Source of the DNA: Streptomyces sp. NRRL B-1347
GTDB taxonomy: Bacteria; Actinomycetota; Actinomycetes; Streptomycetales; Streptomycetaceae
DNA: 26,622 nucleotides
Assembly (NCBI RefSeq): GCF_000720325.1
Contig: NZ_JOJM01000105.1
Location: 1-26,622 of the forward strand
Reading direction: 5' to 3'
Below the pieces are notes generated by a model, which did not search any database, was not told the origin of the DNA, and saw only the letters and a list, made by a program, of their open reading frames with translations. The translations under genes and the position numbers were made by a program. Shown one piece after another: positions 4,472-24,021 of the stretch (within the stretch, counting starts at the first letter, position 1; each line of letters starts with the position of its first letter).

Positions 4472-5227
4472 GTGAGTGATCGCAGTGCGATCGAGTGGAC
4501 CGAGGCGACGTGGAATCCGACCACGGGATGCGACCGCGTCTCGGCGGGCTGCGACAACTGCTACGCGCTGACGCTGGCGAAGCGGCTGAAGGCGATGGGC
4601 TCGGCGAAGTACCAGAACGACGGTGACCCGCGCACGTCCGGGCCAGGATTCGGCCTGACGCTGCACCCGGAGGCGCTCGCCGTGCCGTACGGGTGGAGGA
4701 GCCCGCGCACCGTGTTCGTGAACTCCATGAGCGACCTGTTCCACGCCCGGGTGCCGCTCGTTTACGTGCGCCGGGTGTTCGAGGTGATGGCGGGCACTCC
4801 GCAGCACACCTACCAGGTGCTCACCAAGCGGGCGCGCCGGCTTCGTCAGGTCGCTGACCGGCTGGAGTGGCCGGCGAATCTGTGGATGGGCGTGTCGGTG
4901 GAGAGCGCGAAGGAGCTGTCGCGCGTGGATGACCTGCGGCAGGTGCCGGCGGCGGTGAAGTTCTTGTCGTGCGAGCCGCTGCTCGGCCCGCTGGACGGGC
5001 TGGAACTCACGGCGATCGACTGGGTCATCGCCGGAGGGGAGTCCGGCCCTGGGCACCGGCCGCTCGAGGAGGCGTGGGTGACGCAGATCCGTGACACCTG
5101 CCAGTCCGCTGGGGTGGCGTTCTTCTTCAAGCAGTGGGGCGGCCGTACTCCGAAAGCCGGCGGCCGCGAGCTGGACGGCCGTACCTGGGACGACATGCCT
5201 CAGCAGCTGGTGCTTCCCGCGCGCTAG
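4472..5227 (+). CDS. Phage Gp37/Gp68 family (DUF5131) three-Cys-motif protein
   Basis: A 251-aa protein starting at a GTG (VSDRSAIEWTEATWNP) with GGAGGG 7 bases upstream. The N-terminus carries IEWTEATWNPTTGCDRVSAG, then CDNCYA, giving the family's three cysteines at residues 20, 27 and 30. Such a cluster could bind Fe-S or metal. Further family signatures are NSMSDLFH, QVLTKR, LWMGVSVE, LSCEPLLGPL and VIAGGESGPGHRP, and near the C-terminus FFFKQWGG. The fold is related to radical-SAM-like TIM barrels, but the reaction is unknown. The adjacent convergent gene encodes TcmP, the partner named for this motif, and the two stop codons overlap. The pair is common in phages and accessory islands, so a mobile-element or phage-conflict role is plausible but unproved. 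Confidence 0.9.
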   Translation: MSDRSAIEWTEATWNPTTGCDRVSAGCDNCYALTLAKRLKAMGSAKYQNDGDPRTSGPGFGLTLHPEALAVPYGWRSPRTVFVNSMSDLFHARVPLVYVRRVFEVMAGTPQHTYQVLTKRARRLRQVADRLEWPANLWMGVSVESAKELSRVDDLRQVPAAVKFLSCEPLLGPLDGLELTAIDWVIAGGESGPGHRPLEEAWVTQIRDTCQSAGVAFFFKQWGGRTPKAGGRELDGRTWDDMPQQLVLPAR

Positions 5228-6330
5228 GAGGCTTCGTCGGCGACGTCCTCGGGGGCGTAGAAGCGCACGGTGCACCCTTCCGGCCAGGAGGTGCGCGCGC
5301 GGACCGGGTCGACGCGGAACGCCAGGCCCTGTGCGGCGAGGTTGTCCAGGACCTGGCGCAGGTGCTTGTCCATGTGGTTCAGCCGGGCTGCCTGGCTGGA
5401 GAGCGTCTCCCACCGCTGGGCGGTGCCGGCGTGGGCGCGCAGTGCGACATCCAGCCGGTCCACGACTGAGGCCTCGTCGAACAGCGACAGGGCGCCTGCG
5501 GTCTCGGCGGAGGCGCCCTGGCCGCTGTAGTGGTCCAGTTTCCAGGTCACGGGGGCCCAGCACTTCAGGCCTGCTTCGCTGTGGGTGGCCAGGACCAGGT
5601 GGTACCGGGCGCTCTGGCTGCTGACCTTGATGCCGAAGCTGCCGGTGAACAGGCCCTGCTCCGTCAAGCCCTGCTGGTAGGCCGTGGCGAAGGCCTCTCT
5701 GCGGCCGCGCCGCTCGAGTACGGCGGATGTCCAGTGGGTGCCACCGAAGTAGGGGGTCATGGTCTTGTCGTAGCCCTCGCGCTGGCAGAAGCGGTGCAGC
5801 TCGTTCGTGAAGAGGGTGAACAGCACCTCGTCACGTGGTCCGGCGAGGCACTGCCTGATCAGCGAGAAGGGTGCGCTCTTCAGGTCGAACGGGTCGATCA
5901 GCCACAGTACGGGCGTCTCGGCGCGGCCGCGGTGGGCGAGCGCGGACAGCCGGGGCTGCTGTTCGGCGAAGACACCGGGCGGCTGCACACTGATGTTCAG
6001 CTGCGGTGACGGGGGCAGCTTGGCGAACTGCTGCCGCAGTTCCTCCACCCGGTCGGGCCGCTCCTCGAGACAGACCAGGTTGAGCTTGTTGAAGCGCCGG
6101 TGCGCCGCGTGCTCGAGGAAGGTCTTGGCAACCACGACGGGGGAGCCGGGCGGACCGTCGGAGTAGACGCCCGGTCCCGCGAAGGCGTCGACGATGGTGG
6201 CCTCCGGGAACTTCTGGAGGATCTTGCCCATCCAGCACTGCAGGTAGTGCCGGTACACGAGGTGTTTCACCTGGGTGTGCGGATCGCTCTTCCAAACGGT
6301 CCGCTCCCGCAGCTCGTCGACTCTCCGCAT
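5224..6330 (-). CDS. tcmP: Three-Cys-motif partner protein TcmP
   Basis: A 368-aa protein starting at an ATG at 6330 (MRRVDELRERTVWKSDPHTQ) with GGGAGGGA just upstream. A longer frame to 6366 lacks a ribosome site. Family signatures are WKSDPHTQVKHLVYRHYLQCW, IVDAFAGPGVYSDGPPGSP and the acidic ends of strands such as LVCLEE. The DAFAGPG loop resembles a nucleotide or SAM-binding glycine loop of methyltransferases, so a SAM-dependent activity is possible. Further on are LWLIDPFDLK and TPYFGGTHW. The gene is convergent with the DUF5131 gene, which is its expected functional partner. The opposite orientation of the pair is notable, because partners are more often co-directional. Confidence 0.9.
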   Translation of the reverse strand: MRRVDELRERTVWKSDPHTQVKHLVYRHYLQCWMGKILQKFPEATIVDAFAGPGVYSDGPPGSPVVVAKTFLEHAAHRRFNKLNLVCLEERPDRVEELRQQFAKLPPSPQLNISVQPPGVFAEQQPRLSALAHRGRAETPVLWLIDPFDLKSAPFSLIRQCLAGPRDEVLFTLFTNELHRFCQREGYDKTMTPYFGGTHWTSAVLERRGRREAFATAYQQGLTEQGLFTGSFGIKVSSQSARYHLVLATHSEAGLKCWAPVTWKLDHYSGQGASAETAGALSLFDEASVVDRLDVALRAHAGTAQRWETLSSQAARLNHMDKHLRQVLDNLAAQGLAFRVDPVRARTSWPEGCTVRFYAPEDVADEAS

Positions 6331-6545
6331 GGTTCCCTCCCCTGGCCCCACACCGATCGAGCACACCCAGCGTGACCGCAGAAGGACTTGTTGTCTATAA
6401 CACCAAGTCAGCCAACCTCAGCCCGAAGGCGTCAGCGCCCTCGTGACAAGCCGGAGCCGTAGCTTGCCTCGACGGGCGCGTCGGCCGTCTGTGGGGCCAA
6501 CGCCGTGGGTGGCACGATGAGTTGGAACGGCTGGAGGGGGATGGT

Positions 6546-8372
6546 GTGCAGGCTGATAAGCGGCAGATCCAGACGGCGGTCCTGGGCAGCGCGGATTCTG
6601 AGGAGCCGCTTGTGCTGCCGTTGGAAGCCATCGAGCTGGGGGCCTTCCGGCAGCGACATGAAGGCGACACCTTCTGGTGCGGAATCCTGCTCGGCGGCTG
6701 CGGGCTGCAGCTGACCACCAAGCTGTATACCGACCGGGTCTGCCATTTCGCGCACCATCCCGGCCCTGACGGGCACCTCCATGTGTGCGGCCGTCGGGCG
6801 CGCGGCATCTCCAGTGCCGACCACCTGTATGTGAAGGCCGCTGCCGCCGCGTGGCTGCACCGCCGTTGCGAGCAGGCCGGCTTTGAGTTCGCCCGGCCGG
6901 AGGGGGCGCCGATCGGCTCGGTCGTGGACATCCAGCTCCCACGCCGGGGGCGCCGTCTGCGCGTGCACCTGGACCAGGTGGTGCCCCCGGTGTGGGACGG
7001 CCCGAGCGAGCCGGTGCTGGGTCTGTCCGTCCCCGTCGACCGCAGCACCCTCATTCAGCGTTGGTACGTGCACCGCATCCGCCTGGACAGCCAGGGCACG
7101 GCGCGGCATGTCCGTATCGGCACTGAGGCTTTCGCCCGGCCCACCGAGTGGTTCACGCTGGACGAGTGCGAGATGACCGAGCGTGGCCTGTCGACTCCGG
7201 CGGTTGAGCGGATCATCCGTTCGCGCAGTACGCCCCCGCCGACCCGCCGGGCCTTGGGCAATGGCAGGAAGGCGCCGGACTCGCGGGCCCAGGCTCAGGC
7301 CCTCCTGCGCCGTCTTGGGGAGGCCCGCACCGTCGGGGCCGTGGTCGTGGTGAACAGGGTGAGCAGCACCCTCACCGCCATGGACGGTGTGGACCAGGGG
7401 ACTCGTACGCAGATCGACGCCGCCCTTGAAGATGCGAAGGTCTGGCTGGAGGAGCAGGCCGAACTGCGCCGGCAGATGTTCTCCCGCCTGGGCGACGCGG
7501 TATCCGAGGGAAACGCTCAGGAGGCCGGCGGGCTCCTGGTCCGTGTGAACGCGATCGCAGCCCATGACCGCACCGATGCTGAGAACCAAACCGCGGGAGC
7601 AGCAGCGGAGTTCCTTGCCGCGCTGGTCAGGGAGCAGGAAGAAGCTGCCCGGAAGCTGAACGCCGAAGCTGAGGCCGAGGCCGAGGCCCGCCGGAGGAAG
7701 GTCCGAAAGAAGATGGATGCAGCGCAGCAGGTGCGAGTGAGCCTGCGTGCCCTGCGCCGCCAGCGCCGCTCTATGCCCCAGGCGGACAAGCGCCGCCTGG
7801 TCGCCGAGCTCGCTGAGGTGGCCTCAGTGGCTGGTGATCAGCTCACGCCCAGCGAGACAAGCCAGATCAACACCTGGAAGGCGCGCGTGGAACGCGAGCG
7901 GGCGCCCGCCCCCGAACGCGTCCTCCCAGTGCAGCGGCAGCCCGACCAGGTGCGGCCGCCGAAGGCCCGCAAGGACGGACGGTCGCAGCCGGGCAAGAAG
8001 GATGAGCCCCAGCTGCACCACCAGGTGGCACGCAAGGACTGGTACCGAGGGAAGTGCCCGCGATGCCACGCCGGACCGGGGAAAGCCTGTGCCAACGACG
8101 ACCGCGTCGGACCGGGCAAGACGCGGCAGGTCCCCCACGACGAACGCCTGCTCCGGATCCTGCGAACCCGCAAGACCAAACCCCAGCCTCCTGCGCCACG
8201 CAGGGAACGGCGGGGAGAGCAGTACGGCGGCTCTCCGGCGCGTACCTGGCACGCGATGGACGTCACCTGCCCAAAGTGCAATGCCTCACCCAAGGCCCGG
8301 TGTACGCCCCACGGCACGCACCACGAACGGGTGGAATGGGCGAGGGAATTCACCCGAAAGCTCTGGGGCTGA
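6546..8372 (+). CDS. CoiA-like nuclease with two phage-type zinc-binding domains
   Basis: A 608-aa protein from a GTG at 6546 with GGAGG 8 bases upstream; a TTG eight codons earlier is less likely. The N-terminal domain resembles competence protein CoiA-like nucleases: GGCGLQLTTKLYTDRVCHFAHHPG has HFAH at residues 67-70, followed by SADHLYVK with H93 and K97. The middle (about 240-460) is charged and helical, with runs such as AEAEAEAEARRRKVRKK, probably coiled coil. The C-terminus has two zinc modules: CPRCHAGPGKAC from residue 504 with downstream His, and CPKCNASPKARC-THxER from 575. These match the CPxCxAxPGxxC-HxxR type common in actinophage proteins. A DNA-binding nuclease of mobile origin is the best guess. 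Confidence 0.72.
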   Translation: MQADKRQIQTAVLGSADSEEPLVLPLEAIELGAFRQRHEGDTFWCGILLGGCGLQLTTKLYTDRVCHFAHHPGPDGHLHVCGRRARGISSADHLYVKAAAAAWLHRRCEQAGFEFARPEGAPIGSVVDIQLPRRGRRLRVHLDQVVPPVWDGPSEPVLGLSVPVDRSTLIQRWYVHRIRLDSQGTARHVRIGTEAFARPTEWFTLDECEMTERGLSTPAVERIIRSRSTPPPTRRALGNGRKAPDSRAQAQALLRRLGEARTVGAVVVVNRVSSTLTAMDGVDQGTRTQIDAALEDAKVWLEEQAELRRQMFSRLGDAVSEGNAQEAGGLLVRVNAIAAHDRTDAENQTAGAAAEFLAALVREQEEAARKLNAEAEAEAEARRRKVRKKMDAAQQVRVSLRALRRQRRSMPQADKRRLVAELAEVASVAGDQLTPSETSQINTWKARVERERAPAPERVLPVQRQPDQVRPPKARKDGRSQPGKKDEPQLHHQVARKDWYRGKCPRCHAGPGKACANDDRVGPGKTRQVPHDERLLRILRTRKTKPQPPAPRRERRGEQYGGSPARTWHAMDVTCPKCNASPKARCTPHGTHHERVEWAREFTRKLWG

Positions 8373-8503
8373 CCCGCCCAGCGACCGCCCAGGACCTCGA
8401 CAAGTTTGCTGGCACCCGCGTGGTGCGCAACGGACTGGTGACCATCGACCGGGTCACGGACTGGCTGGTTGGCCGGGTCAATACGGAGAGGGCATCTGCG
8501 TGA
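8336..8503 (+). CDS. Possible small protein, 55 aa, unrecognised
   Basis: A short frame (MGEGIHPKALGLTRP) overlaps the 3' end of the CoiA-like gene and ends with DWLVGRVNTERASA. The part beyond the overlap (TAQDLDKFAGTRVVRNGLVTIDRV) looks protein-like, with a regular mix of hydrophobic and charged residues. The start is not certain: GGGTGGA sits too close to the ATG. It could be a real small gene coupled to the preceding one or the tail of a lost gene. Confidence 0.3.
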   Translation: MGEGIHPKALGLTRPATAQDLDKFAGTRVVRNGLVTIDRVTDWLVGRVNTERASA

Positions 8504-8630
8504 CCCCGTTGCCAGGTGGATGCTTACCTGCTGGTGGCGGGACGAAGGCCCGGCCGGGGTTCCGCCTGGGCAGGGGGCATTTCACAGGAGGAGTATTCGT
8601 GGCGGTACCTGTGGGTGGATACTCGGGGGT

Positions 8631-8882
8631 ATGAGCGACACGACGATGAAGGTCGACTCCGCGACCCGGGATCGGTTCGCTGCCGTCGCCGCGGCGCGCG
8701 GGCAGAGCATGCGTGCCTACCTGGCGCAGTTGGCCATAGAGGAAGAGAACCAGGTCAAGCTGAACAAGGCGACGCTGGTGTTCCGCGAGGTCACCGGGAA
8801 GCCCGGCATAGCCGAGGCGTTCGATGCGGCGTTTCCCGAGGACGCCCCGGGCCCCCGGGGCACCGCCGGGCGGGCGGCCTGA
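8631..8882 (+). CDS. Ribbon-helix-helix type antitoxin
   Basis: An 83-aa protein. The first 45 residues (MSDTTMKVDSATRDRFAAVA, then ARGQSMRAYLAQLA) fit a beta strand followed by two helices, as in ribbon-helix-helix DNA-binding antitoxins. The tail, ending in PGIAEAFDAAFPED, would wrap the toxin. The next gene, two bases downstream, encodes a Fic-like toxin, so this is a type II toxin-antitoxin module. The antitoxin would bind the toxin and repress their common promoter, which should lie in the about 130 bp upstream. The start is the ATG behind CTCGGGGGT. The frame stays open further upstream without convincing coding sequence. Confidence 0.82.
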   Translation: MSDTTMKVDSATRDRFAAVAAARGQSMRAYLAQLAIEEENQVKLNKATLVFREVTGKPGIAEAFDAAFPEDAPGPRGTAGRAA

Positions 8883-8884
8883 CG

Positions 8885-9265
8885 TTGGAGCTGCACATCG
8901 ACATCCGGTGGCTCCTGGATCGTCAGGAAGAGCTGCTCGGCAAGGACCTCGGGGTGCGGGACTACTCGGCCCTGGTGGCTGCGGTGGCGCGTCACAAGGT
9001 GAACACTCCGCAGCTGGAGATGGGCGAGCCGGATGTGTACTGGCGTGCGGCGGCGCTGCTGGAGCAGCTGGTGCTGTTGCGTCCGTTGCCGGCCCGCAAC
9101 GCGTTCTTCGCGTACGGGGTGGCGGTGGCGTACATCCGGTCATCCGGGAAGGACGTGGATGATGCCTTCGGGCCGTGGGAGACGTTGATCCGGGATATCC
9201 GATCGCTGCGGCTGACGGTGTATGACGTCGCAGACCGGCTGCGTTCGATGCGGCCGAGGCGATGA
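8885..9265 (+). CDS. Fic/Doc-like toxin component
   Basis: A 126-aa protein that probably starts at a TTG two bases after the antitoxin stop (LELHIDIRWLLDRQEELLGK). It matches in outline the actinomycete proteins annotated as the toxin component of Fic-family toxin-antitoxin systems: DIRWLLDRQ, LGVRDYSALVAAVARHKVNTP, AAALLEQLVLLRPLPARNAFFAYGVAVAYIR. The stretch LRPLPARNAFFAYG sits where Doc and Fic proteins carry HxFx(D/E)GNKR. The catalytic His and GNKR residues are replaced here, so AMPylation or phosphotransfer by the known mechanism is doubtful. Only the Asn of ARNAFF remains. The stop overlaps the next start as ATGA. Confidence 0.75.
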   Translation: MELHIDIRWLLDRQEELLGKDLGVRDYSALVAAVARHKVNTPQLEMGEPDVYWRAAALLEQLVLLRPLPARNAFFAYGVAVAYIRSSGKDVDDAFGPWETLIRDIRSLRLTVYDVADRLRSMRPRR

Positions 9266-9456
9266 CCGGCTTCGACTTGATCGTGGTGGGGGCAGGCCCG
9301 GCCGGGGTGTCGGCAGCGGTGATGGCGTCGAGTCTTCGGATGCGCACGGTGGTCGTCGAGGCCGAGCAGGTCGGGGCGAAGCTCCGGTCGATCGACGCGC
9401 TGCAGAAGCGATTGGCCAGCACATCACCCTTGGGGGGTCAGACGCACAGGCGCTGA
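9262..9456 (+). pseudogene. Truncated NAD(P)/FAD-dependent oxidoreductase
   Basis: The frame begins MTGFDLIVVGAGPAGVSAAV, a complete N-terminal Rossmann dinucleotide-binding motif (GxGxxG, residues 11-16) followed by MRTVVVEAEQVGAKLRSIDA, typical of thioredoxin-reductase-like flavoproteins of about 300 aa. After about 48 residues the similarity stops and the frame ends in LASTSPLGGQTHRR. Only the first FAD-binding strand-helix-strand is left. Its ATG overlaps the toxin stop (ATGA), so the intact ancestor formed a three-gene operon with the toxin-antitoxin pair. Confidence 0.75.
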
Positions 9457-9540
9457 TGCCAGCCGTCTGTCGTTGGACCGTCAGGGGGAGAGGCAAGCGG
9501 TCTGTGAGTGGCGTGCGGTCGGTCCGGTCAGGGCTGGGGC

Positions 9541-10485
9541 ATGGCTGTCTTGCCGCGGATCGCTCCTATGCTCGCCTCGCCGGGCTTCCTCCCGCCTGCA
9601 CGTTCTGATCATCTGTGGGCTGCGGAGACGAAGTACGACGGGCAGCGCGTGATCGCCTACCTGCCCGGGGACGGCTCGGTGCTGTTGCGCTCCCGCTCGG
9701 GTGCCGACATCACCGCCGCCTATCCCGAACTCCATAGCCTCGGCCGGAGCGTGGAGGGGCCGGCGATTGTGGACGGGGAGGTCGTGGCCCTCGATGAGGA
9801 GGGCCGGCCGGACTTCGCGCGCCTGCAGCCTCGGATGGGCCTGGTCGGCTCCCCGGTGCGCGCAGCCCGCCTCGCCGCTCAGGAGCCCGCCCACCTGGTG
9901 CTGTTCCTGGACGGGCAGCTGCTGACGGGCCAGGCCTACAGCACACGCCGCCACCACCTGACGCAGGTGGTGGCACCCGGCCCGCACTGGTCGGTGCCGG
10001 CGTCCGTGGCCGGGCACAGCCGCCGGGCCCTGGAGCTGGCCCGCACCCGGCAGCTGGAGGGCATCGTCCTCAAACGCCTGGACTCGATCTACGAGCCGGG
10101 GACGCGCTCCCGTGCCTGGATCAAAATTCGTAACCTGCGCACCGTGGACGCGGTCATCGGTGGCTGGGTGCCGGGCCAGGGTCGGCTGAGCGCCCTGCCC
10201 GGCGCGGTCCTGCTGGGCGAGCCCCACGACGGTGTGCTGCGTTACCTGGGCAGCGTGGGCACCGGCTGGAATGAGCACGAACACACCCAGCTGAACGATC
10301 TGCTGACCATCGCCGCAGATGACGTATGCCCCTTCTCGCCGCCTCCGCCGGTGCGCGGCGCCCGCTGGGTCCTCCCACGCCTGGTGGCGGAGATTCGCTA
10401 CACCACCCGCACACGAGCCGGCCTGCTGCGCCAGCCGGTCTGGCACCGGCTGCGCCTTGACCTCGCACCGGGCGACGAGTCCTGA
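9541..10485 (+). CDS. ATP-dependent DNA ligase (LigC-like)
   Basis: A 314-aa enzyme that seals DNA nicks through a ligase-AMP intermediate. Ligase motif I is ETKYDGQR with nucleophilic Lys31. Next come LLRSRSGADIT (motif Ia region), IVDGEVVALDE (motif III), GIVLKR (motif IV) and WIKIR (motif V). A C-terminal OB-fold domain follows (VIGGWVPGQGRL onward, with YLGSVGTGW). The size fits the short LigC-type ligases of actinobacteria, which lack the LigD polymerase and nuclease domains. No Ku gene is visible in the window. I start at the ATG at 9541; an upstream GTG at 9508 adds eleven weak residues. The gene seems intact and stands alone between two decayed stretches. Confidence 0.92.
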   Translation: MAVLPRIAPMLASPGFLPPARSDHLWAAETKYDGQRVIAYLPGDGSVLLRSRSGADITAAYPELHSLGRSVEGPAIVDGEVVALDEEGRPDFARLQPRMGLVGSPVRAARLAAQEPAHLVLFLDGQLLTGQAYSTRRHHLTQVVAPGPHWSVPASVAGHSRRALELARTRQLEGIVLKRLDSIYEPGTRSRAWIKIRNLRTVDAVIGGWVPGQGRLSALPGAVLLGEPHDGVLRYLGSVGTGWNEHEHTQLNDLLTIAADDVCPFSPPPPVRGARWVLPRLVAEIRYTTRTRAGLLRQPVWHRLRLDLAPGDES

Positions 10486-14081: not shown

Positions 14082-14408
14082 GTGGGACGTCCTCCAGCAC
14101 TTCCAGTGGATGCGAAGCTTTCACTCGTTATCAAGGTGATCTCCGGAGAGGAAACCGCTGTAGAGGCAGCCAAGAGGGCGGGGGTATCTGTGCAGGCTGT
14201 ATCGAACTGGAAGCGCCGTTTTATGGAAGGGGCGCGGCTCGGTCTGGAAGGTGAGCCGGTGCTGCGTGATGCTGCCCGAGAGGAGGCCTTGAGTGATGAG
14301 AACCGTGCCCTTAAAAGGGCGCTGGGGGAGCTCTATATGGAAACTCGCCGCCTCAAGGCAAGGTGGCGTGACCGTGTGATCAGCAGTGATGACCGTGAAG
14401 CGGCCTAG
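14082..14408 (+). CDS. Orphan IS3 OrfA-like helix-turn-helix protein
   Basis: A 108-aa protein from a GTG behind GGGGAGAGGGG. Residues 11-50 (AKLSLVIKVISGEETAVEAA, then KRAGVSVQAVSNWKRRF) form the helix-turn-helix seen in OrfA of IS3-type elements. The C-terminus (LSDENRALKRALGELYMETR) is the usual leucine-rich dimerisation coil. There is no OrfB with a DDE core downstream; the biosynthetic operon follows after about 80 bases. It may be a leftover of a lost insertion sequence. It may also be a domesticated DNA-binding protein that controls the cluster. Its lower GC content resembles the next genes, which supports joint transfer. Confidence 0.7.
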   Translation: MGRPPALPVDAKLSLVIKVISGEETAVEAAKRAGVSVQAVSNWKRRFMEGARLGLEGEPVLRDAAREEALSDENRALKRALGELYMETRRLKARWRDRVISSDDREAA

Positions 14409-14490
14409 AAGATTCAACTAACTCCATTCTTGACTCCGCTGCCCCATGGTACGAATGTCCCACGACGATGCATTCGAAAGTCGGGGGCAC

Positions 14491-15447
14491 ATGCACACCA
14501 TAGAACGTCAGGTTGTAGCCGGTCTCGGGGCGCTAACTGTAGTTGGTGCGCTGGGAGGGAGTCTGGTTCGGATGGCGGGGGCTCGGGAACGAGCCCGCCG
14601 CAGCACTACATATCGACGCTCGGACGGCAGCGTGATCGAGGTTGAGGTTCACTTACCTGCGGATGCGCAATCGGCAGTCATGTTTGAGAACGGCCTGGGA
14701 ATGGCGCACGAGTGCTGGGACTGGGTTTCCAGTAGTCTTCCCGGGGGGGTAGCGTACGTTCGTTACAACAGGCCCGGCTACGGAGTGAGCAGGTCAGCCT
14801 CCCCTCCGACTCTCGATGAGCATATTTCGCTTCTCAGTGAGCTTCGCTCCGAGTACGTTTCTAGTTTGCCGGTCACGCTTGTCGGGCACTCCTTGGGCGG
14901 ATACTTGGCTGCCGCATATGCAGCTTCGTGCGGCGCGGACGACTCCATTGAACGAGTCGTGCTCGTGGATGCAACAAATATCGATTCGCTGCATGCGGCC
15001 CGCGATTTGGACTTCTATCCATGGGTGCGCCAGTCCCTCATCATGGAGGCGGTATGGTCGGCCATCGGACTTGCCGCTCTGGCTCCGGTACGAGATGCTC
15101 CAGGGTTCCGGCCAGAAATAGAAAAGTCCCTTCAGGATTTCTCTGTGCAGCCCGGGACCTGGCTCACTTCCTTTCGCGAGTTCTGCGCCGCCGCGAAATA
15201 TCCCTCGCTGCAGCCGCTCAACTTGCCGCTTGATGTTGTGTCGGCCCATAACAACCTGCGAGCTGCTGACCATGATGCCGACCAGCTCGGGCTTCTCAAG
15301 CTGTCCGACCGTTCCAGGCATCACATCATTGGGGATGCGGAGCATCTGAGTGTGCTGTCGATACCCGCGCATGCTCGGCATGTCTCGCAGATCATCATGG
15401 GGGATCGTCAGGCCGTGCTGGATGCATCGGAAATCGGAGAACGGTGA
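14491..15447 (+). CDS. Membrane-anchored alpha/beta hydrolase of the linaridin-like cluster
   Basis: About 318 aa from an ATG at 14491 with GGGGG just upstream; ATGs at 14446 and 14458 have no ribosome site. An N-terminal hydrophobic segment (VVAGLGALTVVGALGGSLV) anchors it. The hydrolase core follows: VMFENGLGMAHECWDW (oxyanion region), YVRYNRPGYGVS, the nucleophile elbow LVGHSLGGYLAA, the strand RVVLVDATN, and a late His in GDAEHLSVL. The triad looks complete. In cypemycin-type linaridin clusters a hydrolase-fold protein (CypH/LinH) acts with a membrane protein on the precursor, in dehydration or epimerisation. This gene is the best candidate for that role. It contains a TTA codon at 14653. 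The stop overlaps the next start as GTGA. Confidence 0.8.
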   Translation: MHTIERQVVAGLGALTVVGALGGSLVRMAGARERARRSTTYRRSDGSVIEVEVHLPADAQSAVMFENGLGMAHECWDWVSSSLPGGVAYVRYNRPGYGVSRSASPPTLDEHISLLSELRSEYVSSLPVTLVGHSLGGYLAAAYAASCGADDSIERVVLVDATNIDSLHAARDLDFYPWVRQSLIMEAVWSAIGLAALAPVRDAPGFRPEIEKSLQDFSVQPGTWLTSFREFCAAAKYPSLQPLNLPLDVVSAHNNLRAADHDADQLGLLKLSDRSRHHIIGDAEHLSVLSIPAHARHVSQIIMGDRQAVLDASEIGER

Positions 15448-15992
15448 GAGGCGTGCAGCAGAAGAGAGTGGCACTGGTCACGGCGGGACTGGCCGGATGG
15501 CTGGTCCTTACGGCGGCCGGGCAGCTTCCTGACCACCGCTTTGACGCGCTGCTGCAGCGCGGCCGGTGGCGCATACCCGTTCCGAACTGGCGGTTCTTCG
15601 GCCCGAACCCGGGTGTTACCAATACGCATCTGCTCTACCGCGACTTCTGCGCCAACAGGCCCAGTATCTGGCGAGATCTTGAAGTAGGGGAAGACAGGCC
15701 GTGGTACGGACTGGTGTGGAACCCCCGAAACCGGGCCCCGAAGTCAATATTTGACGCCTCGCAGCGCACGATCGTGGCGATATCGAGCCACGATACAGGA
15801 CAGCGCGTCACGGATACATCGGACTATATCTTTCTGTCGCGTTACGTGCAGCGTCATGCCCCACATGAGCCAGGAGCATCGGAAACCCAGTTCCTGCTGG
15901 TGGAATCCAAGGCGCTGGACACCAGCAACGAGCAGATTACACCGGCCTTTGCCTCCGAAAGGCTGCCCTTGCCCGAATTTTCAGAGCGATAG
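15444..15992 (+). CDS. Membrane-anchored SdpA-like protein
   Basis: A 182-aa protein from a GTG overlapping the hydrolase stop, with GGAG upstream. It has one N-terminal membrane segment (VALVTAGLAGWLVLTAAG) and a presumed extracytoplasmic domain. The motif IPVPNWRFFGPNPGVTNTHL is close in spirit to the W-FF-NP signature of SdpA-family proteins from the sporulation delaying protein system, and SIFDASQRTI may match their conserved end. SdpA works with SdpB to mature a secreted peptide toxin. An SdpB/HTTM-like gene lies two genes downstream, so the same type of pair is present here. It could instead correspond to a separated C-terminal domain of CypH-like proteins. The assignment is tentative. 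Confidence 0.6.
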   Translation: MRGVQQKRVALVTAGLAGWLVLTAAGQLPDHRFDALLQRGRWRIPVPNWRFFGPNPGVTNTHLLYRDFCANRPSIWRDLEVGEDRPWYGLVWNPRNRAPKSIFDASQRTIVAISSHDTGQRVTDTSDYIFLSRYVQRHAPHEPGASETQFLLVESKALDTSNEQITPAFASERLPLPEFSER

Positions 15993-16006
15993 TTCTTCGG
16001 CCGGAA

Positions 16007-16042
16007 GCCGTGTAGTCAACTCTCTGGGGTTGACTACACGGC
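16007..16042. promoter_or_regulatory. Perfect hairpin upstream of the precursor gene
   Basis: GCCGTGTAGTCAAC (16007-16020) pairs perfectly with GTTGACTACACGGC (16029-16042) across an 8-base loop. It sits 15 bases after the SdpA-like stop and 47 bases before the precursor start. There is no T-run. It may act as a partial terminator, protect the downstream mRNA end, or serve as a dyad operator. Confidence 0.75.
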
Positions 16043-16088
16043 GTCCAGCCGAACGGCTGGAGCTTTACAGGATGATGAGGAGAAGCTC

Positions 16089-16280
16089 TTGAGTAATGTT
16101 GCCGACTACATCAACAGCAACGACAAGATCACGCAGGGTCTTCAGGTCGCTTTGCGTCCTGAGACGAACGGCCCGGTCATGATCACCCCGATTGCAGCTG
16201 TCGCCGCCGGAGCCGGTGTCGTCGCTACGGCCAGGGTTGGTCAGCACGTTGCTCGCTACGTCGCGCACCGCGATCACTGA
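16089..16280 (+). CDS. Linaridin-like RiPP precursor peptide, 63 aa
   Basis: It starts at a TTG (read as Met) with AGGAG 6 bases upstream, the best ribosome site in the area. The leader is polar (MSNVADYINSNDKITQGLQV). Residues 29-34 read PVMITP, which fits the PxxxTP motif of linaridin precursors (cypemycin has PAMATP at the same place). By analogy the core starts at Ile32: ITPIAAVAAGAGVVATA, then RVGQHVARYVAHRDH, 32 aa in total. Only Thr33 and Thr47 could become dehydrobutyrine. There is no Cys, so no aminovinyl-cysteine ring is expected. N-terminal dimethylation of Ile by the methyltransferase is predicted. Hairpins flank the gene on both sides, typical of highly expressed precursor genes. 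Without the neighbours I would only call it a small hydrophobic peptide. Confidence 0.68.
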   Translation: MSNVADYINSNDKITQGLQVALRPETNGPVMITPIAAVAAGAGVVATARVGQHVARYVAHRDH

Positions 16281-16298
16281 GCTGACTAGGTGACCTAG

Positions 16299-16337
16299 GG
16301 AGGCACGGTGTGCTGCCGATAGGCGCACCGTGCCTCC
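16299..16337 (+). terminator. Hairpin between precursor gene and membrane protein gene
   Basis: GGAGGCACGGTGTGC (16299-16313) pairs with GCGCACCGTGCCTCC (16323-16337), 15 pairs with one G-U, around a 9-base loop. It lies 19 bases after the precursor stop. A leaky terminator here would give more precursor mRNA than mRNA for the enzymes. Confidence 0.75.
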
Positions 16338-16382
16338 GTGGCCAAGGTTGCATAAACCCTGGAAAAAGAGGATACGACTGCA

Positions 16383-17219
16383 GTGTTTCAGAGTGTTAGG
16401 CCCGAGATTGTTTCCCGGCGAATAGCATCCTTGGGGACTTTGGTTTCATCTGTCGAAATCCTTACTCAGGTGAAAAGGTTCAAACGGGATGAACTCCTGG
16501 CTTCGCAGATAGCAGCTGGACACCCCAATTTCGCGCGCCGGTTCCCAAGGCTGGTGCATGCATTGGACTCCAGAGCGGCAGCTGTTGCCACCTACGGGAT
16601 CCAGGCAGCTGCTTCCGCGGCGACTCTGATCTGGCCGCGGAGTCGGGCCGTTCAGATGTGGGGTGGCGCCGTACTCGTGGCGGCCGGCGGCTTTGATCGC
16701 ATACGGAGTCCGTATGGAGCAGATGGAGCCGACCAACTGCAACAGGTCATCAATGTGACTCTCTCAGCCACAGCCACTTTCACCGATGCTCGTGAAAGAC
16801 GCGAAGTCGCGATGCGTGCTCTGGCGCTGGAGACGACCATCTCGTACGTTGCTTCAGGCGTCGTCAAGGCTGTTTCTCCGGTATGGCTTAAAGGTGAAGC
16901 ATTCGCTGGAATTATCGGCACGCAAGCATACGGGGACAAGCGCCTCTTTGCCCTGGTTACCAAGTATCCCTTAGTCGGTCGCATTATTTCGTGGGGAACG
17001 ATCGTCGCAGAGGTTGGATTCCCGCTGGTATTCATTTTGCCGAAGCCGGCGGCTCGCGCCTATCTCGGCTTGATGGCAGCCTTTCATCTTGGGATCGGGC
17101 AGTTCATGGGACTCAACAGGTTCGTTCTCGCCTTCGGTGCGACCCATCCTGCGCTTCTCTATGTCATCGATCAGCGTTCCTTATCCGCGGCGGATCGAAA
17201 GTCTCTCACGATGAATTAG
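16383..17219 (+). CDS. HTTM/SdpB-like multi-pass membrane protein
   Basis: A 278-aa protein from a GTG. Hydrophobic helices include residues around 58-76 (AAVATYGIQAAASAATLIW), 85-100, 145-165 (ALETTISYVASGVVKAVSPV), 195-225 (VGRIISWGTIVAEVGFPLVF) and 230-250 (AYLGLMAAFHLGIGQFMGLN). The order SYVASGVVK, W-KGEAF, E-GFPL, then FHLGIGQFMGL-F, fits HTTM proteins, the family that includes SdpB and vitamin-K-dependent-carboxylase-like membrane domains. In SDP systems SdpB matures the toxin. Linaridin clusters need a membrane protein of LinL type, and this gene is the candidate here. It has TTA codons at 16971 and 17181. GC content is low for Streptomyces. Confidence 0.68.
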   Translation: MFQSVRPEIVSRRIASLGTLVSSVEILTQVKRFKRDELLASQIAAGHPNFARRFPRLVHALDSRAAAVATYGIQAAASAATLIWPRSRAVQMWGGAVLVAAGGFDRIRSPYGADGADQLQQVINVTLSATATFTDARERREVAMRALALETTISYVASGVVKAVSPVWLKGEAFAGIIGTQAYGDKRLFALVTKYPLVGRIISWGTIVAEVGFPLVFILPKPAARAYLGLMAAFHLGIGQFMGLNRFVLAFGATHPALLYVIDQRSLSAADRKSLTMN

Positions 17220-17340
17220 GTCACATTTCTGGGAATGCCCAAGGATTACTGCTGGTGCACATGACCAGGTCTCATGTAAACCTGCCAGGCCGAGATCGTG
17301 ATACGCCCTATGTGATGATACTTAAGCGGGAGGGATTCTG

Positions 17341-18105
17341 GTGGCAAGCGTGGTGCGGGACATCGGCTACGGGCGAGAGTTTCAAGGATGGTATGATCGG
17401 CTCTTCCCTGATGACACCCTGACTGCACTGACAGTCGAAACTCTGGTTTCCCTGCTACCTGGGGCCGGTGGAGGGGCATTAGAATTAGGGGCAGGTACTG
17501 GCCGTGTTGCCATCCCCCTGTCCCGGTTCACTCCAGTAGTCGCTGTCGACTCCTCAAAGGAAATGATCCAGGCTCTTGACGTTTCGATCTCAAAGCATGG
17601 GGCGAATGTGCAGAGCATGTGGGCAGACATGCGCGACTACGCGGATGACGAGCAGTACGCAATCGTGTACTGCATTTGCGGATCTCTATCTCTACTGCTT
17701 GAAGTCGAGGAGCAGCAGGAAGCGATGAATCGTGCGGCGGCCCGGCTCGCGCCCGGTGGGCTGCTCGTGGTCGAGACCTACAATAGACCGGCAATTCTCG
17801 CGATGCATGGCGATTTGCCGCGCACCACATACTTCACGAAGTACCCGGAGCCCGGTACCGGAGTTCAGACCCACTCAACGCTTGTTCCCGGAAGCGACCT
17901 TTGGGAGTGCGCGCACATCTGGTTCGACAAGGACGGCACTTCACGTGTCGGGCACGAGATATCACGCCTTATCTCTCCTGAAGATGTCGACGCCTACGCG
18001 GCGAACTGCGGGCTTTCCGTCGTGGCGCACTGGGCGGACTGGAATCAGACGCCGTACCACGAGCAGTCGGGCACCTACGTCTGCGTCTATCAGCGTGCCG
18101 CATGA
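17341..18105 (+). CDS. SAM-dependent methyltransferase of the cluster
   Basis: A 254-aa class I methyltransferase starting at a GTG behind GGGAGGG. Motif I is ALELGAGTGRVAIPL (about residues 47-61), followed by the acidic end of strand two in VVAVDSSKEMI, then MWADMRDYADDEQYAIVYC and LAPGGLLVVETYN. Linaridins carry an N,N-dimethylated N-terminus made by CypM-type enzymes, so that is the likely job here, with Ile32 of the precursor as substrate. Two TTA codons lie three bases apart at 17479 and 17485 inside motif I. The stop overlaps the ABC transporter start as ATGA. Confidence 0.85.
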   Translation: MASVVRDIGYGREFQGWYDRLFPDDTLTALTVETLVSLLPGAGGGALELGAGTGRVAIPLSRFTPVVAVDSSKEMIQALDVSISKHGANVQSMWADMRDYADDEQYAIVYCICGSLSLLLEVEEQQEAMNRAAARLAPGGLLVVETYNRPAILAMHGDLPRTTYFTKYPEPGTGVQTHSTLVPGSDLWECAHIWFDKDGTSRVGHEISRLISPEDVDAYAANCGLSVVAHWADWNQTPYHEQSGTYVCVYQRAA

Positions 18106-19820
18106 AACTCAGTGACATGACCCGGGACAACTGGGCGCTGCTCAGTTTCGGGATGGTGCTCGGCCTGGCAGGAACGGCTTCCACCCTTGTCCAGCCGCTC
18201 TTCATAGGCGACCTGATCGAGGCGGTCGGGGCCGACGATCCCGTGGTGTGGCCGATCGTGTTCCTCGCCGCTCTGTTCACGATCGACGCGTTGCTCGCCG
18301 TCGGACACTTCTACCTCATTGGCCGTGCTGGGGAGAACATTGTCTTCAGCATGCGCACGACACTCATCGGCCGCCTCCTGCACGCTGAGGTCGGAGCGTT
18401 CAACAGGCTAGAGCACGGCGATATTTTCACCCGCACAGTGGCTGACACATCCGTTGCACGCATCGCTATGTCCACCTCCGTCGCCGAGATGATCACAGCC
18501 GGTTTCACCACGGCCGGCTGTGTCGCGGTCATGGCTTGGATCGACTGGAGGCTGCTGCTGGCCGCCGTGGGGTGTCTCGGGATCGCCTCCGTGATCGCGT
18601 TGCGCCTGGCTCGGGCCGTCCGCAGCGCAGCAGTGACCAACCGGCAAGACACCAGCGCCCTCGGCTCCGGGCTGCTGCGCGCGCTCAGCGCCCTGACCAC
18701 CGTCAAGGCCTCCCGCGCCGAGGCGCGCGAAGCCGACCGCCTTTGCGAACTCGCCGATGCCACACGCATCAGCGGCCTCCGCGTCACCCGTCTGTCATCG
18801 ATGCTGACACCCGCGATGAACGTGGGCACCCAGGTATCCCTCGCTGTAGTCATCACCTGGGGCATGGCGCGCGTCGCCACCGGGACGCTGCCCATCGAGG
18901 ACCTCACCGCGTTCATCATGTACCTCTTCTACCTGGTGTCCCCGATGGTGACGCTGTTCATGGCGCTGGGAGAGTTCCAGCAGGGCCGGGCCGCCATCGA
19001 CCGGGTCAAAGAGCTGGCCGCCATCCAGCAGGAGCCCACTGCAAGCACCGGTGGCACCGCCCGCATCACCGGAGCTCCAGCCATCGAATTCGATGAAGTC
19101 ACCTTCACCTACCCTGACTCCGCCGTTCCGGCAATCAGCCAGATGTCCTTCAGCCTGCCCACCACGGGCGTCACGGCGATTGTCGGCCCGTCCGGTGCGG
19201 GCAAGACCACCTTGTTCCAGCTCATCGAACGCTTCCACCATCCCGGCCAGGGCACGATCCGCATCGCCGGCACCGACACTGACGCCATGGGCCTGCCCGA
19301 ACTTCGCTCTTACATCGGCCTGGTAGAACAGGACACTCCACTGATGCGGGGGACAGTCTGGGAAAACCTCACCTACGCCTGCCCCGACCCATCCCCCGAT
19401 GACGTCACCGAGGCACTCAAGGCAGCGCACCTCACCGAGGTCATCGACAAGCTGCCGCACGGCCTGGACAGCGACCTCGGCGAAGGCGGTGCCGGATTGT
19501 CCGGGGGCCAGCGGCAGCGCCTGGCCATTGCCCGCGCTCTGCTCGCCCGCCCCGCCGTTCTGCTGCTCGACGAGGCCACCTCACACCTCGACTCCGACTC
19601 CGAGGCAGCCTTGCGCGAGGCCCTCACCGTCCTCGGAACCCGCTGCCAAGTCCTTACCATCGCTCATCGCATCTCCACCGCCCTCGGCGCCAGCCACATC
19701 CTGGTCGTCGAGGACGGACGACTGCGCGCCAGGGGCACCCACGCCGAGTTGATGGAAAGCGACGCCACCTACCAGCGGCTGGTCACACAACAACTCACCC
19801 CCGCCGGAGCCGGAACATGA
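18102..19820 (+). CDS. ABC exporter, fused membrane and ATPase domains
   Basis: A 572-aa half-transporter. The first 300 residues hold the membrane domain (for example ALLSFGMVLGLAGTASTLVQ and VVWPIVFLAALFTIDALLAV). The ATPase domain shows Walker A GPSGAGKTT at 362-370, a Q-loop LVEQDTPLMRGTVWENL, signature LSGGQRQRLAIARAL, Walker B VLLLDEATSHLD and the H-loop IAHR. There is no C39 peptidase domain, so the leader must be cut by another enzyme. It most likely exports the finished peptide and may give self-resistance. It is coupled to both neighbours by ATGA overlaps. GC content rises sharply at this gene compared with the preceding ones. Confidence 0.93.
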   Translation: MKLSDMTRDNWALLSFGMVLGLAGTASTLVQPLFIGDLIEAVGADDPVVWPIVFLAALFTIDALLAVGHFYLIGRAGENIVFSMRTTLIGRLLHAEVGAFNRLEHGDIFTRTVADTSVARIAMSTSVAEMITAGFTTAGCVAVMAWIDWRLLLAAVGCLGIASVIALRLARAVRSAAVTNRQDTSALGSGLLRALSALTTVKASRAEAREADRLCELADATRISGLRVTRLSSMLTPAMNVGTQVSLAVVITWGMARVATGTLPIEDLTAFIMYLFYLVSPMVTLFMALGEFQQGRAAIDRVKELAAIQQEPTASTGGTARITGAPAIEFDEVTFTYPDSAVPAISQMSFSLPTTGVTAIVGPSGAGKTTLFQLIERFHHPGQGTIRIAGTDTDAMGLPELRSYIGLVEQDTPLMRGTVWENLTYACPDPSPDDVTEALKAAHLTEVIDKLPHGLDSDLGEGGAGLSGGQRQRLAIARALLARPAVLLLDEATSHLDSDSEAALREALTVLGTRCQVLTIAHRISTALGASHILVVEDGRLRARGTHAELMESDATYQRLVTQQLTPAGAGT

Positions 19821-21280
19821 CCGATGCCGCGATCGTCGGCACCGGCCCCAACGGGCTGGCTGCCGCGGTGACCCTCGCCCGGGCCGGCCTGGAGGTGTCC
19901 CTCTTCGAATCCGCCGACACCATCGGCGGAGGCCTGCGCACCACAACACTGTTCGACAAGGACATCGCGCACGACATCTGCGCCGCCGTCCACCCGATGG
20001 CTGCCGCATCGACCTTCTTCCGGCAGTTCGACCTGCCCGCGCGGGGAGTTCGTCTCCTGCAGCCGGGCATGCCGTACGCCCATCCGCTGCCCGACGGTTC
20101 GGCGACCGCGGTCTGGCGCAGCATCGACCGCACTGCGGACCACCTCGGCATGGACGGGCCCCGGTGGGCCCGTCTCATGGCTCCGCTGGTCCACCGCACC
20201 ACCGAGGTCGTCGACCTGCTCCTGTCTTCCCAGCGTGCCCTGCCGCGCAGCCCGGCCGCCCCCTTGTTGCTGGCGCCGCGAGTGCTGGCCCACTCCACGA
20301 GGTGCACTCCCTTCGCCACCGAGCGAGCACAGGCCCTGCTGACCGGGGTCGCCGCACACGCCGTAGGCAAGCTGCCCTCGATACCCTCAGCCGCTGTCGC
20401 CCTGCTGCTCGGCCATCTCGCGCACAGCAGCGGCTGGCCCCTGCCCGAGGGAGGTAGCGCCCGTATCGCTGACGCCATGGCCGCCGATATCACCGCACAC
20501 GGCGGGGTCATCCACACCGGACACCACATCAAAGACCTGGCGGAGCTCAGCGGCATTCCCCTCGTCATGCTGGATGTCGGCCCCCGGGCCCTGTTACGCA
20601 TGGCCGGGCCGCGGCATCCGTTGCCTCCCCGCTACCGCAACGCCTTGATGTCCTATGCGTATGGTCCAGGAGCTGCCAAGGCCGACTTCCTCGTCAACGC
20701 TCCGATTCCCTGGACCAACCCCCTCATCGGCAAGGCTGGCACCGTCCACCTGGGCGGGACACGCTCAGACATCCTCCGCCAGGAGGCTGCCACCGCGTCC
20801 GGACGCCCAGGGGATGCGCCCTTTGTCCTGGTCGTCGACCCGGCGGTCACCGATCCGTCCCGAACCTCAGGCGGCAAGCGCCCCATCTGGGCCTACGCCC
20901 ATGTCCCTCATGGCGATACACGCGACCCCGTCAACCTGATTCGGGAGCGCATTGAAGAGTATGCGCCGGGCTTCACCGACACGGTTGTCTCCAGCCGGGG
21001 CCTCTCAGCCACCCAGTACGAGGAGTACAACCCGAGTTACGTCGGAGGCGACATCTCCGCCGGAGCATTGACGCTACGTCAGTCGCTGGCCCGGCCCACC
21101 CTTCGCTGGGATCCCTACACCACACCGCTGCCCGGCGTGTACCTGTGCTCGGCATCCACCCCGCCCGGCCCCTCTGTCCACGGCATGTGCGGATATCTCG
21201 CCGCGCTCTCCGCACTCCGCCGCCACCACGCTGTACGAACTCCACCCGTCCTGTCCCCGAAAGAGAAGGAGACCACCTGA
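19817..21280 (+). CDS. FAD-dependent oxidoreductase, phytoene-desaturase-like
   Basis: A 487-aa flavoprotein. The N-terminus AAIVGTGPNGLAAAVTLARA has the GxGxxG dinucleotide loop, followed by VSLFESADTIGGGLRT, typical of CrtI-like desaturases and related amine-oxidase-fold enzymes. The C-terminal FAD-binding part is YLCSASTPPGPSVHGMCGYL. CrtI-like enzymes oxidise C-C bonds, while relatives act on peptides or amines. In this cluster it probably tailors the RiPP. I recall oxidoreductases of this kind in some non-cypemycin linaridin clusters. Its start overlaps the transporter stop (ATGA). It carries one TTA codon at 20594. Confidence 0.85.
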   Translation: MTDAAIVGTGPNGLAAAVTLARAGLEVSLFESADTIGGGLRTTTLFDKDIAHDICAAVHPMAAASTFFRQFDLPARGVRLLQPGMPYAHPLPDGSATAVWRSIDRTADHLGMDGPRWARLMAPLVHRTTEVVDLLLSSQRALPRSPAAPLLLAPRVLAHSTRCTPFATERAQALLTGVAAHAVGKLPSIPSAAVALLLGHLAHSSGWPLPEGGSARIADAMAADITAHGGVIHTGHHIKDLAELSGIPLVMLDVGPRALLRMAGPRHPLPPRYRNALMSYAYGPGAAKADFLVNAPIPWTNPLIGKAGTVHLGGTRSDILRQEAATASGRPGDAPFVLVVDPAVTDPSRTSGGKRPIWAYAHVPHGDTRDPVNLIRERIEEYAPGFTDTVVSSRGLSATQYEEYNPSYVGGDISAGALTLRQSLARPTLRWDPYTTPLPGVYLCSASTPPGPSVHGMCGYLAALSALRRHHAVRTPPVLSPKEKETT

Positions 21281-21720
21281 TGCATGTACGCCACTGGGCC
21301 ACTACCGCCCTCGCAGTCACTGGCCTCGTAGTGACACTCACAACCCCGGCCACGGCAGACGACGCCACAGCACGCCGCACAGTCAAGTGGTCGGCCACAC
21401 ATCAGACCTCGGCTGCAAGCGGTGAACGGTGGATCGAATCCGGGAGCACGCCGAGCAGTCCAGAGCTCGTTCTCAGCGGCACTCTGTCCAACACTGGTAG
21501 CGCCTGCTACTCATTGTGGACGAGGTTCAGGTTCGACCGCACCCCGGGGCCAGTCCGGAAACACGCTGAGATATGCGGACGCAGTAGGGTCGAAGTCAAG
21601 ATGAATCAGGCATATCAGTTCATCACCAGCGGCTATGTCGCAGTCTGCGAGGGCACAGAGAACCCCGACAACTGCGGCCCGTGGGAGAACATCACCTCGT
21701 GGCCGGTCAACCACAGCTGA
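21280..21720 (+). CDS. Secreted four-cysteine protein at the end of the cluster
   Basis: A 146-aa protein whose ATG shares its A with the TGA of the oxidoreductase gene. AGGAG lies 8 bases upstream. A signal peptide is evident (WATTALAVTGLVVTLTTPAT, cut after ATA). The mature part is about 119 aa with four cysteines (ACYS, EICG, AVCE, DNCG) and looks like a small beta-rich disulfide-bonded domain, with many Ser, Thr and aromatic residues. Tight coupling suggests it belongs to the operon. Extracellular immunity, a carrier or a partner of the peptide are possible roles. I do not recognise a family. Confidence 0.75.
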   Translation: MHVRHWATTALAVTGLVVTLTTPATADDATARRTVKWSATHQTSAASGERWIESGSTPSSPELVLSGTLSNTGSACYSLWTRFRFDRTPGPVRKHAEICGRSRVEVKMNQAYQFITSGYVAVCEGTENPDNCGPWENITSWPVNHS

Positions 21721-23114: not shown

Positions 23115-23279
23115 TCGTCTCCAACCGCGAATTCTGTCAGCCGGTTCCGACACGGCCACAGCAGGTCGCTACACGAAATTTGAACCCTCTGACTGTCTCG
23201 ACGTCGGCGACCGCCGCCTACAGCCTGCGCGGCACGCAGTCGGTCGCAGTGAGGAGGGGGACGGCGCGTGCGGTCAGGT

Positions 23280-24021
23280 GCCGTGCGGGGGCAGCTGCTG
23301 CTCGGCCAGCTGCGCGAGGGCCGTGACGCGGGCGGCGTCCCCAGCCCGATTGCGGGGCCAAGCCCTGGAGCATGGTGCGCAGCTTCTTCGCCTCGATGAC
23401 GGTGACGCCGTGCAGTTCGGTGCACCCACGAGGGGCGGGCACGCGCGCGCCGTGCACGGCCAGGACCGGGCGGACCGGTACCCCCAGCACCTTCGCGGCC
23501 TGCTCCGCCTCCCACACCACGGTGCTGAGGGCCTTGGTCTGGTCGTACTGGCCGTAGCGCAACAGGGAGCCGTTGATGGTGAGGCGGGAGCGCTTGGAGC
23601 GCCAGTTCTTGCTGTCGACCAGGGCCATGCCGAAGGCGCCGACGACCAAGTGGTCGAGGTTGGCGCGGGAGCGGGATATGGCCCGGTCGTGCAGGACGGC
23701 ATAGCCGCGGCGGGTGAGCGGGGCCAGCAGCCGGGCGGTCGCCACCTCCTCGCCGGCCGCGCCGGATGCCCAGCTGTTGGGCGCGCGGCGGTAGGTCCGG
23801 CGGATGCCGTAGGCGAGGACAGCCGCGGCGGCGACGGCGCCCGCCGGCCACCCGAGCAGTGTGGCGGCGGCTGCGCCGATGACGGCGGCGCCCGCGGCGG
23901 TCAGCGGCAGCGTGAGCTTCGCGCGGCGGTGCTGCTGGAGGCGCTCGGCGGTGCGGGCTAACTCCCCGATCCGGCGCGCGCTGGCCCCCGCTGCGCTGGT
24001 TCGGCGTCCAGTGATAGCCAT
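23280..24021 (-). CDS. NERD-domain nuclease-like membrane protein, frameshifted near its 3' end
   Basis: It starts at an ATG at 24021 (MAITGRRTSAAGASARRIGE). Two hydrophobic segments at about 36-70 (LTLPLTAAGAAVIGAAAATL, AVAAAAVLAYGI) place it in the membrane. The NERD (nuclease-related) domain follows: GAAGEEVATARLLAPLTRRG, VLHDRAISRSRANLDHLVVG and GMALVDSKNWR. E, D and D-x-K fit a PD-(D/E)XK-type site. After LQGLAPQSG the likely true ending is in another frame (DAARVTALAQLAEQQLPPHG, stop near 23280). A GGGG run at about 23347-23350 with one extra G would explain this. As written, the frame runs on to 23218 with low-quality sequence. The real ending is a guess. Function: probably DNA- or nucleotide-related, unproved. 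Confidence 0.8.

Follow-up and report, generated by a model that had tools for sequence, protein, structure and literature searches.

The enzymes that modify linaridins, a family of ribosomally synthesized and post-translationally modified peptides (RiPPs), are discussed in a passage of the corynaridin paper with the remark that "their exact mechanism remains unclear" (PMC9927463). The same paper in part terms crdG an HTTM-domain protein, and a passage of another paper applies HTTM as a domain name to GGCX, the vitamin K-dependent gamma-carboxylase (PMC9927463; PMC5343777). Therefore, a family-level link between linaridin enzymes and GGCX is already implicit in print. A passage in a review further describes grmL as indispensable in grisemycin and as potentially encoding a novel peptide epimerase (PMC10373908). 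Here, we analyzed a linaridin-like locus at positions 14082-21720 of NZ_JOJM01000105.1 from Streptomyces sp. NRRL B-1347 (GCF_000720325.1; the whole stretch of 26,622 nucleotides, positions 1-26,622, is called the window). The locus is a type-B-linaridin-like RiPP cluster, and we propose, with confidence that is about evenly balanced, that its LinG and LinL proteins would constitute a quinol-driven strong-base enzyme acting on peptide alpha-carbons, with a CrtI-like redox partner.

The type B group is recognized by a short precursor that carries PxxxTP and lacks a C-terminal Cys, by a LinL homologue, and by an HTTM protein together with an alpha/beta hydrolase, either as separate LinG and LinE proteins or as a fused LinH. 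The 63-amino-acid peptide encoded at 16089-16280 carries PVMITP, matches the profile of related precursors, ends in HRDH and has the predicted core ITPIAAVAAGAGVVATARVGQHVARYVAHRDH; the LinL homologue is encoded at 15444-15992, the LinG-like protein at 16383-17219 and the LinE-like hydrolase at 14446-15447. In clusters with PVMATP or PVLATP peptides, fused LinH-type proteins correspond in their two halves to the hydrolase and the membrane protein, and the hydrolase aligns with residues 350-606 (the C-terminal half) of the fused LinH of one such plasmid cluster, L027. No flavoprotein-decarboxylase family was among the Pfam and NCBIfam matches of the nine proteins of the locus. The preliminary description had placed the cluster in the linaridin family without a cysteine decarboxylase of the cypemycin type, and had expected kinship of the hydrolase and membrane protein to linaridin families; these results bear it out on both points.

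One genome per species was scanned with the window membrane protein, which gave 22 loci (55-69% identity), and L001, which ranked first among 17 plasmid records matched by the same protein, was added to make 23 comparison loci, in which gene presence was counted at an E value of 1e-6. The hydrolase (41-45% identity), the LinL-like gene and the CrtI-like gene were present in all 23 (with only a partial CrtI-like match in L022), the exporter in 22 (weakly in L021), the methyltransferase in 21 and the helix-turn-helix (HTH) gene in 17, where a homologue of 54-59% identity occupies the same place. Homologous loci without the peptide had been named beforehand as evidence that would count against the cluster, but all 23 loci had a homologous PxxxTP peptide between their LinL-like and membrane genes, the copy in L025 being truncated. 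The suggestion that the gene set was undescribed does not hold, since the hydrolase, the gene then called SdpA-like, the CrtI-like gene and the peptide recur in every locus, including those of the legonaridin producer Streptomyces sp. CT34 (L017) and of S. monomycini (L009). Seventeen Streptomyces loci share the order exporter, CrtI-like, methyltransferase, HTH, hydrolase, LinL-like, peptide, membrane; six Embleya, Micromonospora and Streptomyces loci begin with the hydrolase, end with the CrtI-like gene and have no HTH gene. The window follows the second order yet keeps the HTH gene.

When a profile was built from the peptides of the 23 other loci, the window peptide ranked first of 460 frames (E value of 4e-4, next 0.26). 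An ORF (open reading frame) of at least 45 amino acids with PxxxTP appeared in 15 of 1,000 shuffles of the window gap; the motif was present in 446 of 2,300 shuffles of the 23 other gaps, which are mostly longer, so that the motif alone is not rare there. By profile rank and window-gap shuffles, the window peptide is more than chance. Its core contains two Thr residues, against 5-8 in full-length Streptomyces-type peptides and 2-4 in the Embleya type, and its product would have a predicted mass of 3225.77 if both Thr were dehydrated and the N terminus dimethylated. In L023 (9545-9745) and L021 (9521-9664), the main peptide is followed by another precursor-like peptide, which is divergent and lacks PxxxTP.

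Profile comparison with hhalign showed that the 278-amino-acid LinG protein is homologous to SdpB and to vitamin K-dependent gamma-carboxylase. Its structure model (predicted local distance difference test score of 94.4) matched GGCX by Foldseek/VIA over GGCX residues 59-329 only. In the residue alignment, Lys162 of LinG corresponds to the catalytic Lys218 of GGCX, the residue that deprotonates hydroquinone, and Trp223 of the GGCX quinone pocket and a conserved His are likewise kept. All 29 sequences compared, drawn from four families whose substrates are unrelated, were identical at these quinone-site residues (Lys, Trp and His). HTTM was matched by 35 of 53 LinG relatives at E values up to 0.1, and by the window LinG through profile comparison only; against the SdpB model TIGR04033 the window LinG, though homologous, scored 20.1 bits, below the cut-off of 178.4.

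The CrtI-like flavoprotein family passes electrons to quinones, and its genes accompany HTTM-type enzymes. LinL-like genes were found in 23 of 150 genomes of the genus, at 26 places, 14 of which (13 loci) had a CrtI-like match within ~5 kb. In stretches of 8.5-19 kb, we compared a test set of 19 further places whose CrtI-like match reached at least 59% (18 full length, one partial) with a control set of 20 hand-picked CrtI-like paralogues (40-43%). HTTM-type enzymes were encoded in 16 of the 19 test stretches and in none of the 20 controls (Fisher 2.6e-8, the genomes being related and not independent). Five of the test loci, together with L090, supplied part of the sequences for one HTTM profile, and the LinG profile, built without them, also finds those five; in the partial case, L129, the HTTM gene lies ~7.5 kb from the CrtI-like match. 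The CrtI-like copies of G519 and G520 (43-45%), which adjoin LinH and LinL, had been picked earlier for that reason and stand outside the control set. By our reading of the ORFs, the three exceptions lie at purine-type genes.

The HTTM partners were of three kinds: LinG or LinH with LinL, SdpB with SdpA (L092), and an L034-type HTTM protein (L091, L095-L097 and L129). The neighbor of the last is a DUF5819 protein in L091 (4.1e-25) and a weakly LinL-like protein in L096 and L097. In L092, the genes for SdpC (1.6e-32), SdpA, SdpB (2.6e-84), a four-Cys protein and the CrtI-like enzyme share one strand. On a broader reading, which we consider less likely than not, the CrtI-like flavoprotein would be a shared redox partner of HTTM-type peptide enzymes. 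At 5600-10974 of L091 (genome G011), genes for a secreted Ala-rich peptide, the DUF5819 protein and the HTTM protein have a CrtI-like gene and a four-Cys gene nearby; L034 and L095-L097 contain HTTM and CrtI-like pairs that resemble those of L091.

The protein encoded at 15444-15992, with one predicted transmembrane helix followed by a PNWxFFxPNP domain, had been called SdpA-like, a name we withdraw: it groups with LinL/DUF5819-like proteins, and the SdpA domain PF17418 was matched neither by the window proteins nor in the window's genome. It is LinL-like because the same gene follows the fused LinH in the plasmid clusters L026 and L027, the name LinL being assigned by cluster position. An 11-sequence alignment gave 25-28% identity to these counterparts and 19 invariant columns, and BLAST gave E values of 5e-20 and 2e-14. 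DUF5819 was matched by 43 of 58 LinL-like family members (E up to 0.1; best 5.7e-8), though not by the window protein itself, and SdpA was not among the family's matches at that threshold. By hhalign, LinL-like proteins and SdpA are related with a probability of 5.8%, at a score somewhat above controls. A second LinL-like and LinG-like pair, of 26-28% identity, is present in the window's genome (L003; G000:C128, ~8437-9767).

The row of plus-strand genes that had been described is real and comprises nine ORFs, eight genes and the peptide. Overlapping stop and start codons occur, at 15444/15447, 18102/18105, 19817/19820 and 21280, but at four of eight junctions and not at most of them, as had been stated. 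The row opens with the 108-amino-acid HTH protein (14082-14408; Pfam HTH_Tnp_1, 4.5e-6), which resembles IS3 OrfA without a transposase partner and is probably a cluster regulator of domesticated-transposase type. Pfam and NCBIfam backed the calls of the hydrolase (GHSLGG elbow; Abhydrolase_6, 1.2e-13), the LinM-like S-adenosylmethionine methyltransferase (17341-18105; class I, Methyltransf_25, 6.6e-14), the LinT-like ABC exporter (18102-19820; ABC_membrane, 5.9e-33; ABC_tran, 1.4e-30) and the CrtI/CrtO-like flavin adenine dinucleotide oxidoreductase (19817-21280). The LinL-like, LinG-like, peptide and secreted four-Cys proteins matched no Pfam or NCBIfam family above its cut-off, and the methyltransferase scored 72 bits against the daptide model NF041820, below the cut-off of 175. 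The surroundings are mobile-island-like, with genes for a DUF5131 protein (4.2e-100), a phage zinc-finger-domain protein and an ATP-dependent DNA ligase at 4388-10485; a NERD (nuclease-related) domain protein (3.8e-10) is encoded on the minus strand at 23221-24021.

The 146-amino-acid four-Cys protein (21280-21720) had been considered atypical, which is correct insofar as none of the 23 loci has the gene, but it has the same neighboring genes in two relatives as well as in loci of the SDP type. It was found at 17 places in 12 of the 150 genomes, the window's own included; seven of these places were inspected, and the window and the six others (five loci) adjoin CrtI-like and/or sdpAB genes. 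A putative role is immunity or an accessory function. The front genes (HTH, hydrolase, LinL-like and membrane protein) have their nearest kin in chromosomal Streptomyces loci (64-69% for the membrane protein), and the late genes theirs in L026 (exporter 68%, CrtI-like 69%). GC content is 57-61% from the HTH gene to the methyltransferase and 66-69% in the exporter and CrtI-like genes. The late genes of G504 and G008 are closer still (exporter 74-76%, CrtI-like 78-79%, four-Cys 54-57%) and are joined there to another, distant LinG-LinE-LinL front with PVMATP peptides. Judged by sequence, the window cluster is a mosaic.

L017 is very probably the legonaridin cluster. Its peptide, cut at PTM/ITP and bearing eight dehydrobutyrines and two methyl groups, has a computed mass of 3600.87 Da. 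The cut was selected for its fit to the mass and by analogy with cypemycin, whose precursor is cut at the corresponding position. A cut after TP would give 3290-3308 Da, which does not fit 3.6 kDa, and the match thus hinges on the cut. The CT34 peptide was reported at 3.6 kDa, from a cluster with 10 further ORFs in 12.1 kb (PMC4319589); the CT34 genome has two LinG matches, two LinL matches and one weak LinL match. We take a CrtI-like gene to be normal for this group. A passage of the corynaridin paper terms the type B oxidoreductase "short-chain" (PMC9927463), and we infer that the published CT34 enzyme is the CrtI-like gene product.

Homology of LinG to GGCX is observed; the chemistry that follows is our inference from it. 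LinG with LinL would bind the leader, oxidize (mena)quinol and generate a strong base in the membrane, which would strip alpha-protons off core residues to give D-residues. The same carbanion could expel water from the few Thr residues, dehydration being possible but not needed. The CrtI-like flavoprotein would recycle the cofactor through electron exchange with the quinone pool, LinE or another protease would cleave PVM/ITP, LinM would dimethylate the new N terminus, and LinT would export the peptide, which is probably antibacterial against other actinomycetes. The S. atratus plasmid locus L028 (4272-11316) carries a LinG-LinE-LinL module within a cluster whose annotation includes lantibiotic dehydratase and LanC genes, and its product could be a lanthipeptide into which linaridin enzymes introduce D-residues. 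The quinol-driven base is the simplest reading because of the role suggested for grmL, this module where dehydration is already covered, and the conserved quinol site. With just two Thr residues in the window core, inversion rather than dehydration may dominate in its product.

It is also possible, though we consider it doubtful, that this is an ordinary type B cluster in which LinG and LinL form a non-redox membrane scaffold or dehydratase complex, the conserved Lys has a structural role and the peptide itself is the substrate of the CrtI-like enzyme, which might serve as an alpha,beta-dehydrogenase. The CrtI-like family is one of dehydrogenases, 23 loci share the core gene set, and a passage of PMC9927463 mentions dehydrated Thr in linaridin products. 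Against this, the Lys, Trp and His of the quinone site are invariant across families that share no substrate, and a close CrtI-like gene also accompanies HTTM enzymes with non-linaridin peptides. The name of TIGR04033, export_SdpB, points in a different direction, namely that HTTM proteins with LinL, SdpA or DUF5819 partners serve hydrophobic peptides as machinery for export, processing or immunity and the hydrolase is the leader peptidase; the relevant passage of PMC9927463 describes linaridin clusters, including that of corynaridin, as without a protease gene. We regard this as unlikely, given the dedicated ABC exporter in nearly all comparison loci and the centering of conservation on the quinol site. 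Finally, the mosaic GC content and kinship of the front and of the exporter and CrtI-like genes, together with broken-looking relatives (the truncated peptide of L025 and the partial CrtI-like match of L022), could indicate that the cluster is a remnant, decayed or hybrid, without a product. All nine window frames are open, and the late genes recur with the four-Cys gene in G504 and G008, which makes a remnant very improbable.

The residue-level tie between LinG and GGCX renders the mechanism by which D- and dehydro-residues arise in linaridins testable, and the window core, with so few Thr, offers a clean substrate for telling epimerization from dehydration. If the proposed quinol-driven mechanism is true, quinol as a strong base would be an added cofactor logic in RiPP chemistry, and linaridins, the SDP system and the HTTM-DUF5819 peptide system would be linked through a common CrtI-like partner. 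On the broader reading in which these systems share that redox partner, D-residues may have gone unseen in SDP as well. The literature searched, outside which most subscription papers lie, contained no statement of the link at residue level, of the link to SdpB or of the CrtI-like partnership.

Among known systems, human GGCX and its bacterial relatives share with LinG the membrane fold and the Lys that is catalytic in GGCX. The Asn159/His160 Glu site of GGCX is absent from LinG, which has DGxDQ there and lacks an Asn-His pair in the region, as is the fused lumenal propeptide-binding domain, and the peptide substrates are unrelated. The SDP system has in SdpB a LinG homologue that keeps the Lys and carries a DGGDQ/H motif; its SdpC is a proprotein that is secreted, and its SdpA has no recognizable kinship to LinL. 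The plasmid clusters L026 and L027 (Streptomyces sp. GBA 94-10 and S. californicus) resemble the window in their first peptides (PVMATP and PVLATP), their LinL-like gene, and their methyltransferase (43-50% identity), exporter (55-68%) and CrtI-like protein (63-69%). They differ in that the HTTM protein and hydrolase, two genes in the window, are one protein followed by the LinL-like gene; L027 has an annotated NTF2-like gene, and no four-Cys homologue was found among the annotated L026 and L027 proteins compared. At 3907-6859 (minus strand), L027 also holds a minimal set of a PIMATF peptide, HTTM, hydrolase and LinL-like genes, beside a complete linaridin-type cluster, the second on this plasmid. 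The legonaridin-type locus L017 and L009, which we take to be the mononaridin locus, have the LinE, LinL, peptide, LinG, LinM, LinT, CrtI-like and HTH genes in common with the window. The window differs from them in its gene order, which places the exporter and CrtI-like genes at the end, in the other lineage of these late genes, in an extra four-Cys gene, and in a core poorer in Thr than full-length Streptomyces-type peptides.

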